From positions 1 to 34,014 of the forward strand of contig JABDAZ010000030.1 in the NCBI GenBank assembly GCA_013288945.1: a DNA stretch of 34,014 nucleotides, given 5' to 3'. Below the pieces are notes generated by a model. The model did no database searches, was not told the origin of the DNA, and saw only the letters and a program-made list of their open reading frames with translations. This stretch comes from Bacteroidota bacterium. GTDB taxonomy: Bacteria > Bacteroidota > Bacteroidia > Chitinophagales > Chitinophagaceae. Of this stretch, positions 7,434 to 34,014 are shown one piece after another. Made by a program: the position numbers and the translations under genes. How positions within the stretch are numbered: the first letter of the stretch is position 1; every line of letters begins with the position of its first letter.

Positions 7434-7456
7434 GTAAATATTAATAGTTGTTGCGA

Positions 7457-7602
7457 AGTATGAAGTATAAACTATGAACTATAAAATATTTTTTAAAATA
7501 TAAATCCTGCAAAAAAATCATAAAAAAATTTATTAATACTTTTTTAAAAATAAAGTGTCATGACTTAACAAACTTTATAACTTATATTTTATAGCTCATA
7601 CT
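7457..7602. repeat. Inverted pair of heptamer arrays (intergenic element 1)
   Basis: The left arm (7457-7484) is four contiguous heptamers on the plus strand: AGTATGA, AGTATAA, ACTATGA, ACTATAA. The right arm (7575-7602) is four contiguous heptamers read on the minus strand from 7602 inward: AGTATGA, GCTATAA, AATATAA, GTTATAA. The arms can pair imperfectly: in the best register 17 of 21 positions match. The AT-rich spacer of about 90 bp contains a further small inverted repeat. The outer unit of the right arm reaches the stop codon of the SDR gene. The left arm ends 24 nt before the start codon of the SAM hydrolase gene. A second element of the same design lies at 33256-33350. Confidence 0.8.
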
Positions 7603-8560: not shown

Positions 8561-8633
8561 GATTCCGTAGCTCAGTTGGTAGAGCAATACACTTTTAATG
8601 TATGGGTCCTGGGTCCGAGTCCCAGCGGGATCA
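8561..8633 (+). tRNA. tRNA-Lys (anticodon UUU)
   Basis: All four arms fold. The acceptor stem is GATTCCG (8561-8567) with CGGGATC (8626-8632). The D stem is GCTC/GAGC. The anticodon stem is ATACA/TGTAT around the loop CTTTTAA, giving anticodon TTT at 8594-8596. The T stem is CTGGG/CCCAG with loop TCCGAGT. The discriminator base is A8633. The acceptor stem has one T-G pair, and the 3' CCA is not encoded, as is frequent in Bacteroidota. A consensus promoter lies just upstream and a terminator hairpin 36 nt downstream, so it is a single-gene unit. Confidence 0.97.
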
Positions 8634-8668
8634 CAAACTCGGAAATTAAACCGACTCAAAACTTAAAT

Positions 8669-21255: not shown

Positions 21256-21576
21256 ATCAAAATTCTATATTCAACTAAATTTTCTTTTTTAAATAATCAT
21301 AAAATAGCAAATGAAACTTGTTGGTGAAAGTTTTATAAATAGCGAAAAACCAAACTCAATAATTAATAAATTTTGTAACAATCTCCCAATTAATAATTAA
21401 GCTTCATTGGCGTCGCACTCTTGTACTTTTTGTTCTTTATTCAGCAATGAAATTATTTATTAATAAAGAAATTTTCATCGATCACTCATCAAGCGAAAAA
21501 AACATTATTAATAAAAAAAGCTTTTATATTTTATTATAAAAGCCTTTCTAAAATTTATTTTAATCCTATTAATAGA
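21256..21576. other. 321-bp intergenic region between convergent genes
   Basis: No gene is supported; a 29-codon frame from 21311 has no recognisable features. The region holds a GC-richer patch at 21401-21435 within very AT-rich flanks, several ATTAAT sites, and a terminator hairpin at 21513-21543 for the minus-strand YncE-like gene. No clear plus-strand terminator for the barrel gene was found. Confidence 0.5.
21513..21543 (-). terminator. Intrinsic terminator of the YncE-like gene
   Basis: GCTTTTATA (21520-21528) pairs with TATAAAAGC (21535-21543) around a 6-nt loop. Read on the minus strand, the hairpin is followed by seven T. It lies about 35 nt beyond the minus-strand stop codon at 21577. 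Confidence 0.8.
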
Positions 21577-32275: not shown

Positions 32276-33238
32276 TTACTGTGTTTTTTCTTCCGCGCCT
32301 TTAATCATAAACACTGCGGGAACCGGCCGCTGGCCTTCATTATCAGATGGTTTGATGGTTTCTTTTCCATTAATAAGCATGCAACTGCTTCCGCCGCCGT
32401 CAACATTTAATGCTTCATAACAACCTAAGCTTTTTAAAATTTTGGCTTCCTGCATTAATGTGGCGCCATCGGCAACGCCGGCGGAACGGCCTTGAATTAC
32501 AAGAATAATTAAATAGCCTTTGTCAGTATAACCCATTGCTGTGCGCGGGCTTTTTTCATTTTCTTTTCCAACAAATAATTGTTCTTCCTTGTTTGTTATT
32601 AATATTTCTCCATCGTGAATTAATGTCGGGCCCCCGCCAACTGCAGTTTCCATTTTCCACCATTTCCATTCCACATCATCCAAATCTGTTATTGATGGAT
32701 TTGAAATTTCTCCTTTGGAAAGTACGGGCGAAAATTCAAATGCATAAGGTTTGCGGTGAAAAGAATCTGTGTAAATCCATGCAACATCGGCTTTTCTTTT
32801 TTTATCAATTCCAATGGCGCTGCGCGTGGGATAATAATATAAAGTAGAATCGTTGCCAATCCCTTTTAACGAAACAACGTTGTAAGCAACCAGTTTTCCA
32901 TTCTTCATAACCATATTAAGATTTTGATTAGTAGAGAAAGAAAAAAAAGTGCAGTTAACAACAATGTATGGCGATTTTTGCTGTCGATAATATTGCGATG
33001 GCGTGTAACGCTGTCCAGTGCCGGTTTGCGCGCTGAACGAAATATTTTTATCTTTTAATTTTGCAGCAACATAATATGCAATAAACGGCGCACCATCTAA
33101 CGAATCAAAAGTTTTATAAACATGTATTGATGGTGGAAGTTTGCCGAATAATGTATCTGCTTTTTGCCATTTTATTTGTGCAAATGCAAAACTTGTAGCA
33201 TTAATAAATAAAGTAAAGATTAATAATTTGCGCAGCAA
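32276..33238 (-). CDS. Secreted phosphodiester glycosidase family protein (NAGPA domain)
   Basis: This 320-residue protein begins at a TTG codon (33238): no ATG, GTG or stop precedes it in frame within the visible upstream stretch, and the next in-frame ATG is about 100 codons inside. With TTG the product has a good signal peptide (MLRKLLIFTLFINATSFAFAQ), which supports this start. The NAGPA domain (PF09992) is shown by VVNCTFFSF near 93-101, GGGPTLIHDGE in the middle, and ALNVDGGGSSCMLINGK near 275-292, the family's hallmark glycine-rich turn. Named for the enzyme that uncovers mannose 6-phosphate in animals, bacterial members are thought to act on sugar phosphodiesters or exopolysaccharide. 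It lies downstream of lipA on the same strand, across a heptamer element. Confidence 0.88.
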   Translation of the reverse strand: MLRKLLIFTLFINATSFAFAQIKWQKADTLFGKLPPSIHVYKTFDSLDGAPFIAYYVAAKLKDKNISFSAQTGTGQRYTPSQYYRQQKSPYIVVNCTFFSFSTNQNLNMVMKNGKLVAYNVVSLKGIGNDSTLYYYPTRSAIGIDKKRKADVAWIYTDSFHRKPYAFEFSPVLSKGEISNPSITDLDDVEWKWWKMETAVGGGPTLIHDGEILITNKEEQLFVGKENEKSPRTAMGYTDKGYLIILVIQGRSAGVADGATLMQEAKILKSLGCYEALNVDGGGSSCMLINGKETIKPSDNEGQRPVPAVFMIKGAEEKTQ

Positions 33239-33255
33239 TGTATAACGATTGAAAA

Positions 33256-33350
33256 ACGTAAAATAATTAATGTAAAATATAGAATGTAAGAGATCGGTTT
33301 TTATATTTTATTAATGCAAGCTTTTACATTTTGAATTTTACATTCAACAT
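33256..33350. repeat. Inverted pair of heptamer arrays (intergenic element 2)
   Basis: The left arm (33256-33290) is five contiguous heptamers on the plus strand: ACGTAAA, ATAATTA, ATGTAAA, ATATAGA, ATGTAAG. The right arm (33323-33350) read on the minus strand is ATGTTGA, ATGTAAA, ATTCAAA, ATGTAAA. One 21-nt block of each arm (33269-33289 and 33322-33342) is complementary at 17 of 21 positions, so a long hairpin can form. The right arm abuts the lipA stop codon (33351-33353). The left arm ends 18 nt before the TTG start of the NAGPA-family gene. This is the same placement as element 1 at 7457-7602, with a different heptamer sequence. Confidence 0.8.
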
Positions 33351-34014
33351 TTACATTTGTTCCATCAGCCATTTGTTTTTTCCATAACCAGGAATTACAT
33401 GGCGATCGCTGTGATAAGATGAACGAACAAGCGGGCCGCTTTCTACATAATCAAAACCCATTTCATAGCCTATCTTTCTCAGCTCCGCAAACTCGTCAGG
33501 ATGCACAAAACGCGCAACGGGCAAATGTTTTTTTGAAGGTTGTAAATACTGGCCGATTGTTATCACATCAACATGGCTGTTGCGCAAATCTTTCATCGTT
33601 TGTATTACTTCTTCTTTTGTTTCGCCAAGGCCGAGCATGATGCCGCTTTTGGTGCGCATGTTGCCGGCCTTTAATATTTTTAATGTCTCCATACTGCGCC
33701 AGTATTTGGCTTGTATGCGCACTTGTTTTGTTAATCGTTCTACAGTTTCAATATTGTGAGAAACCACGTCTGGCGCGGCTTCTATCACGCGCTGGATATT
33801 TTCTTTTTCTGCTTTAAAATCTGGTATTAATGTTTCAAGCGTTGTATTTTCATTCAGCGATTTCACGGCCTTAATCGTGTTGTACCAAATAATACTTCCG
33901 CCATCTTTCAGTTCATCACGGTCAACAGAAGTAATAACTGCGTGTTTCACTTTCATTAAATAAATCGCTTCAGCAACACGTTGCGGTTCGTCCCAATCAA
34001 CAGCTTCCGGGCGG
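33351..34014 (-). CDS. lipA: Lipoyl synthase, C-terminal part (gene runs off the right edge)
   Basis: The minus-strand frame is open to the window edge, showing about 220 residues. It starts RPEAVDWDEPQRVAEAIYLMKVKHAVITSVDRDELKDGG, a recognisable LipA radical-SAM core. It continues through TLIPDF, VSHNIETVERL, TKSGIMLGLGE, TIGQYLQPS and FDYVESGPLVRSSYHSD, the conserved C-terminal order. The closing R-S-S-Y-H motif supplies the Ser ligand to the auxiliary iron-sulfur cluster. Both Cys clusters lie in the missing N-terminal part. The enzyme inserts two sulfurs into protein-bound octanoyl groups to make the lipoyl cofactor. The internal ATG at 33956 is not the true start. The stop codon directly adjoins a heptamer repeat element. 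Confidence 0.97.
   Translation of the reverse strand, partial: RPEAVDWDEPQRVAEAIYLMKVKHAVITSVDRDELKDGGSIIWYNTIKAVKSLNENTTLETLIPDFKAEKENIQRVIEAAPDVVSHNIETVERLTKQVRIQAKYWRSMETLKILKAGNMRTKSGIMLGLGETKEEVIQTMKDLRNSHVDVITIGQYLQPSKKHLPVARFVHPDEFAELRKIGYEMGFDYVESGPLVRSSYHSDRHVIPGYGKNKWLMEQM

Follow-up and report, generated by a model that had tools for sequence, protein, structure and literature searches.

In a Bacteroidota genome belonging to Puia or its GTDB equivalent, a genus of the Chitinophagaceae, the gaps between genes hold a family of repeat arrays built in steps of 7 nt. The arrays are mostly inverted pairs, they fill the space between a stop codon and the gene that follows, and they are polar, with a G-rich 5′ arm and a C-rich 3′ arm. 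It is likely that they arise through 7-nt slippage and inverted copying and that they are either tolerated or kept as hairpins at gene 3′ ends. Two of these elements lie in the window, the whole stretch of 34,014 nt that was analysed, which is an entire contig of the 3.03 Mb genome (73% complete).

Two inverted heptamer elements in the window

The gap at 33239–33350 separates two genes of the minus strand. Upstream of it lies the 3′ part of a radical SAM gene (33351–34013), cut by the contig end and recognised as an open frame with a PF04055 match (E 1.1e-13); we take this fragment to be lipA, and its best matches in congeners are 79–88% identical. The downstream gene (32276–33238) encodes a protein with a phosphodiester glycosidase (NAGPA) domain (PF09992, E 2.4e-31), and its TTG start was called from the ORF list only. 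Sequence, period and inverted-repeat tests together delimit two arms. Reading from lipA, the 5′ arm (33322–33356, minus strand) consists of five 7-nt units, in which ATGTAAA-like units alternate with more divergent ones, and includes AATGTAAAATTCAAAATGTAAA at 33323–33344 on the minus strand. An AT-rich spacer follows at 33291–33321, with borders that depend on the alignment (33293–33320 by the ungapped inverted repeat). The other arm (33255–33290) has the same units inverted, such that its plus strand reads AACGTAAAATAATTAATGTAAAATATAGAATGTAAG.

The initial annotation had proposed a second inverted heptamer element between same-strand genes at this place, and the element is real, its 7-nt period and its inverted repeat both being beyond chance. 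The gap matches itself at 0.49, 0.50 and 0.47 at lags of 7, 14 and 21 nt; the combined self-match of 0.486, compared with a shuffle mean of 0.331, was reached by none of 2000 dinucleotide shuffles. The score of the best ungapped inverted repeat (33269–33292 with 33321–33344) was likewise reached by none of 400 shuffles. One arm had been described as touching the upstream stop codon, and the overlap goes further than that, as the TAA of lipA (33351–33353) sits within the first ATGTAAA unit (33350–33356). The other arm stops 17–18 nt short of the TTG at which the NAGPA gene was called to begin, in agreement with the 18 nt originally given, but this distance is uncertain because the start is an ORF call only.

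Folding of the RNA from 33239–33356 gave a predicted energy of −16.5 kcal/mol, compared with −10.5 ± 2.3 kcal/mol in shuffles (z −2.6; 2 of 200 as low), with 20 nt at the tip left unpaired. No terminator-like site was found within 33100–33500, and an Rfam search of 32900–33700 returned nothing above the gathering score, the best match being mir-7359 (21.8 bits against 90, E 0.23). Neither GGG nor CCC occurs in the element.

Element 1 occupies a gap at 7434–7601 between two minus-strand genes, with AAGTATGA/AACTATA-like arms at 7458–7492 and 7567–7601. Its period of 7 was reached by none of 2000 shuffles and its weaker inverted repeat by 4 of 400, and the distance from the gene boundary to its far arm is 24 nt, just as first annotated. 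Elsewhere in the window, a tRNA-Lys(TTT) at 8561–8634 is followed, by eye, by a hairpin with a T-run.

Layout of the family across the genome

The genome was sampled over 772,809 bases, made up of the window, contigs C1, C2, C3, C4, C7 and C8, and 20-kb pieces of C5 and C10; this sample is non-random, the contigs having had matches in a heptamer-pair search and the pieces of C5 and C10 having been picked for theirs. Greedy ORF calls yielded 381 gaps of 60–450 nt without N, and a gap was classed as period-7 when its z was above 4 against 60 dinucleotide shuffles. Period 7 was found in 68 of the 381 intergenic gaps, compared with none for periods 5, 6, 9, 10 and 11 and 6 for period 8; when repeated with 30 shuffles, the scan gave 62 gaps for period 7 and 10 for period 8. 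Inverted repeats with z above 4 were present in 36 of the 68 period-7 gaps and in 37 of the 313 other gaps (p 1e-12). The initial annotation had raised both the prospect of a family with several unit types and the concern that the two loci might be the only examples in the genome; the genome-wide family, with its single layout and its many units (see below), bears out the former, and because of it the two loci are not sole examples.

The period begins at the stop codon. Averaged over genes, lag-7 match per 7-nt bin was 0.26–0.35 in the end of the coding sequence, rose to 0.47 at the stop codon itself and stood at 0.46–0.56 beyond it, with values of 0.55–0.56 directly 3′ of the stop. Among tandem gaps 48 of 236 were period-7, among convergent gaps 17 of 65, and among divergent gaps 3 of 80 (p 6e-5). 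The arrays avoid coding sequence (of the merged elements of periods 7 and 8, 14 of 83 lie inside called ORFs) and divergent gaps, where promoters lie. Arm polarity was scored in the 56 of 68 period-7 gaps that have inverted arms of at least 21 nt, and the 5′ arm had more G than C in 46 of these, fewer in 4 and equal numbers in 6. Similarly, G–C skew over the 40 nt after stops was +0.36 in period-7 gaps and +0.04 in other gaps, and skew before starts was −0.35 and −0.12, respectively.

A set from other species, comprising 160 loci with 2,365,629 bases and 882 gaps, contained 39 period-7 gaps, compared with 13 at period 8 and 0–6 at the other periods. Arms of this kind were present in 31 of the 39, with the G-rich arm first in 25, not first in 4, and ties in 2; skews were +0.29 after stops and −0.25 before starts. 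Period 7 occurred in 5 of 213 divergent gaps and in 34 of the 669 gaps of other types, which is the same direction as above but not significant (p 0.12).

Since 7 is not a multiple of 3, a function in providing stops in all frames was considered and set aside: stop triplets after gene ends were no commoner than in shuffles (8.75 vs 8.42 per 100 nt), and the presence of stops in all three frames within 40 nt was somewhat raised (0.41 vs 0.30 in shuffles).

Several other features of the genome were recorded. A second, unrelated repeat family, with the core AAGTGTGCGACGC, is found at window position 21411, in L168–L197 and in other parts of the genome; with one mismatch allowed at most, 204 sites were counted in 3.03 Mb, compared with 3 for the reversed pattern. 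By eye its context is conserved over about 75 nt (GAATAAAGAAC..GTACAAGTGTGCGACGC..), and the 55 sites within the sample include 7 inverted pairs, 44–296 nt apart. The stretch of contig C5 at 29–49 kb (L049) is dense in AAAAGTA-type arrays and in a separate GTGCGACGC repeat (8 sites), and neighbouring genes there begin with similar sequences. The hexamer ATTAAT seemed to be in excess, but its 2835 occurrences in 772,809 bases are only 1.19 times what a maximal-order Markov model predicts, which places it 50th among the 1196 hexamers counted.

Units, arms and turnover among relatives

The 85 period-7 tracts of the genome sample fall into 25 unit clusters at one mismatch, compared with 35.5 ± 3.4 for random intergenic 7-mers. 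When these tracts were thinned to one per 400 nt (73) and then to those with G or C in the consensus (63), exact units were shared by 3.5% of pairs between loci, about 11-fold the 0.3% of a GC-matched null (maximum 1.0% in 60 trials). Across genera, sharing was below null, with 36 of 48 within one mismatch and 46.9 expected. The spacers are unrelated: with arrays masked, 2 pairs of period-7 gaps matched and 5 more did so through the GTGCGACGC repeat, compared with 373 and 287 pairs among gaps that are not period-7.

The two arms of one gap are more alike than arms exchanged between gaps (mean 5.14 vs 2.67), a likeness that goes beyond the genome-wide vocabulary of units, and the own-gap match was above the 95th percentile in 12 of 51 gaps, compared with 7% of 195 control gaps. 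Pairing in register was 0.705, with the register chosen as the best. A mirroring test, in which unit order was permuted and the register re-optimised, took 22 inverted elements out of the 68 gaps, leaving out 38 with a single tract, 7 that fitted better as direct repeats and 1 with fewer than 3 units; the observed mean was 15.8 vs 14.9, with 15 of 22 elements above their own permuted mean and 2 of 22 at p<0.05. Mirrored covariation of the arms was rejected on this basis, as the value of 0.705 was for a register picked as the best and the corrected excess is small. Single elements can nevertheless form perfect palindromes, variants included, as seen at C2:9601–9654. The arms have a vocabulary in common and do not clearly have an order in common, which counts against strict selection for base pairing. 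The initial annotation had suggested selection on structure as one of two readings; such selection is not supported, because unit order is not clearly mirrored between the arms.

Members of the genus are not close to one another, the nearest NAGPA ortholog being 68% identical and the samples ranging from 35 to 53% G+C. The lipA-NAGPA loci of relatives were found with an NAGPA alignment as query, a single NAGPA protein query having found no relative. Of 80 named loci, 65 have lipA next to NAGPA; 11 more have no lipA in the stretch, and in the remaining 4 the two genes are not adjacent. By eye, arrays of 7 or 8 nt with other units lie in the gap or at its ends in 13 of the 65 loci, and those of L075, L084 and L125 are inverted; a shuffle test for period 7 or 8 flagged the gaps of L075, L116 and L125. 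Thirty lipA 3′ ends were fetched, and among the 28 long enough for the test, that of the window being one of them, the window's alone had a period-7 z above 4. The lipA 3′ end of L243 came to z 3.8 with an inverted GTTGACC array, and that of L225 has an inverted array of roughly 8 nt, which the test for period 7 did not pick up. In L072 and L234, AGCTGCAAG-type inverted arms apparently lie, by eye, within the coding ends of lipA and NAGPA, and if so both proteins would carry residues encoded by the array.

The place between lipA and NAGPA is reused, its sequence is not conserved, and most relatives are without an array there. The initial annotation had regarded relatives without a 7-nt period as evidence against the element; such absence is indeed what most of them present, but a few carry the arrays of other units seen by eye, and the pattern is read as fast turnover and not as the lack of a family.

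Density was compared between this genome and 32 others of the order, from samples of 20–773 kb each. Period-7 tracts numbered at least 6 per 100 kb in 6 of the 33 genomes and 1–5 in another 6, and 21 had none; this genome has 11 per 100 kb and its relatives 0 to 10. With 21 of 33 sampled genomes lacking a period-7 tract, the arrays cannot be essential. The zero counts are soft, because 13 of the 21 come from samples of no more than 20 kb and because G002 and G008, both among the 21, have arrays at lipA by eye. Low G+C explains tract density weakly (Spearman −0.37). A match to SbcD is absent from the five densest genomes. Loss of the SbcCD hairpin nuclease was rejected as the cause, as G045 has SbcD with 6.2 tracts per 100 kb and the comparison of genomes scored ‘none’ with those ‘over cut-off’ gave p 0.13; the values of 0.003 and 0.04 pool sub-threshold matches and are not relied on, and G000 is 73% complete. 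Y1 transposases were also rejected as the cause of the distribution, being too common (41 of 58 relatives).

Origin, role and comparison with known systems

A scheme that would account for the arrays begins with slippage, by which they would lengthen and shorten in 7-nt steps, and continues with inverted copying (template switching) of the first arm, from which the second would derive. A set of units specific to the genome would be reused, and each locus would turn over fast. Slippage fits because of the 7-nt step, the variants within a vocabulary and the fast turnover, and inverted copying fits because of the inversion, the common vocabulary and the unrelated spacers. Transcribed as 3′ UTR or intercistronic spacer, the arms may fold into a long imperfect hairpin. 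Such a hairpin would be tolerated in this position and would probably be useful, protecting or insulating the 3′ end of the upstream mRNA, as hypothesised for REP palindromes. The position of the arrays fits tolerance and use as a 3′-end hairpin alike. That slippage and inverted copying are coupled with a real 3′-end role is put somewhat short of an even chance.

Alternatively, the arrays may be a neutral by-product, in which a habit of replication or repair particular to the lineage makes 7-nt slippage and inverted copies that survive where they are harmless, the hairpin being functionless. The patchy density, the lipA-NAGPA site with other units or none in relatives, the absence of clear mirroring in unit order, the unrelated spacers and the rarity of hits in divergent gaps all suit this account, as does the idea, cited in the available part of one source, that DNA polymerase holds a 7-nt stretch (PMC4692102); by itself, however, the account does not explain the G-rich 5′ arm of most cases or the recurrence of exact units between loci, and it is considered a little less likely than the version with a 3′-end role. 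The exact step and the recurrence of units within one genome could also point to arrays of sites bound by a protein that would recognise RNA or DNA at intervals of 7 nt, much as S1, cold-shock or Csr proteins are proposed for TAACTGA repeats in the text available (PMC4679880). A sequence-specific binder fits poorly with 25 unit clusters in one genome sample, with orthologous sites that have different units by eye, and with the absence of unit sharing above null across genera, and this explanation is quite improbable. A unit-agnostic process with dedicated machinery, writing inverted 7-nt arrays at the 3′ ends of genes in lineages scattered over several phyla, with the step, the inversion and the G-to-C polarity as the conserved signal, is regarded as unlikely; were it true, the elements would be a class defined by geometry alone, with each genome having its own unit vocabulary.

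Insertion of a mobile palindromic element of the MITE or REP/RAYT type after stop codons would be in keeping with arrays that are dispersed, palindromic and at gene 3′ ends, with two Y1 transposase matches in the genome, and with the presence of arrays in 15 of 44 gaps that have the GTGCGACGC repeat compared with 53 of 376 (p 0.002). However, masked period-7 gaps match in only the 2 pairs outside GTGCGACGC, and arm sequences differ between elements, making such an origin very unlikely. Ordinary intrinsic terminators, which are also hairpins at gene 3′ ends, are a poorer candidate still and highly improbable: none is present at 33100–33500, canonical terminators were found in 5 of 65 period-7 tandem or convergent gaps compared with 33 of 236 others (p 0.21), and many array spacers are long. 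Least probable are G-quadruplex or i-motif elements of the type linked to Xanthomonas and Anabaena heptamers, despite a layout and a strand rule that are the same as those in the available part of that report (PMC4692102). A G3 motif was found in 1 of the 68 period-7 gaps and in 0 of the 39 from other species, and a G2 motif in 4 of the 68; these counts refute quadruplexes as the general cause.

REPs are homologous copies of each other. The arrays described here differ from REP, BIME and MITE sequences in that they have no common spacer and no fixed sequence, and homology between copies was not found. REP, BIME and REPIN sequences are palindromic and extragenic, and the available text of the papers on them hypothesises roles in termination or mRNA stability (PMC3733652, PMC3116915).

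A very similar layout is that of the heptamers of Xanthomonas (GGGAATC) and Anabaena (GGGGA(C/T)T), which, in the part of the paper available, are linked to G-quadruplexes with no function found (PMC4692102). That text reports 70 and 75 inverted, or ‘convergent’, cases in two Xanthomonas species, variable between them. According to the same text, the coding strand is the G-rich one in the first 50 bp after stops, where some repeats overlap the stop itself, the non-coding strand is the G-rich one in the 50 bp that precede starts, and few repeats lie between divergent genes (PMC4692102). Inverted pairs, a G-rich coding strand after stops and rarity in divergent gaps are all found here as well; unlike those systems, which as described have one G-rich unit family per genome studied, the present genome has many units and belongs to another phylum. 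The initial annotation knew of no named family of this inverted form in Bacteroidota. No description of one was found in the open-licence papers searched, one of which, in the text available, reports TAACTGA and other heptamer direct repeats in some Bacteroidetes (PMC4679880); the inverted layout itself had been published elsewhere, as in Xanthomonas (PMC4692102).

The STRR heptanucleotide repeats of filamentous cyanobacteria resemble the arrays in being intergenic 7-nt units with point variants at many loci per genome; in Nostoc, 7-bp repeats near a gene 3′ end are hairpin-capable and of unknown function, with stability or termination suggested in the part of the report available (PMC2670836). 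As far as those accounts extend, the differences are the phylum and a layout that is measured here over many gaps. In a Trichormus plasmid (250 kb), 2 of 98 gaps were period-7 and 2 had period 8; one of the period-7 gaps was inverted with the G-rich arm first and the other was not, and the pooled skew after stops was −0.24 over 3 ends. Geobacter metallireducens has tandem units of 7 or 8 nt, mostly as pairs on opposite strands and in several classes per genome; these were termed putative binding sites of a global regulator, and the available text does not describe placement at stop codons (PMC2700814). TAACTGA direct repeats are intergenic, occur in five Bacteroidetes as well, in some cases beside other heptamer repeats, and differ, according to the text available, in being direct, of one unit and, in Beggiatoaceae, mostly right before start codons (PMC4679880).

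In summary, heptamer arrays have so far been known piecemeal, from cyanobacteria, Xanthomonas, Beggiatoaceae and Geobacter, each with a separate explanation. What is new is how many different units follow a single rule and how rare quadruplex motifs are among them, and because the same layout appears with very few such motifs, quadruplexes are removed as a general explanation. With one genome showing one layout and many units, attention shifts to how the arrays are laid out at gene 3′ ends, in steps of 7 nt, with inversion and with strand polarity. Two questions become open to test: why the arrays advance by 7 nt, and why they are abundant in some lineages when the samples of their relatives are empty.
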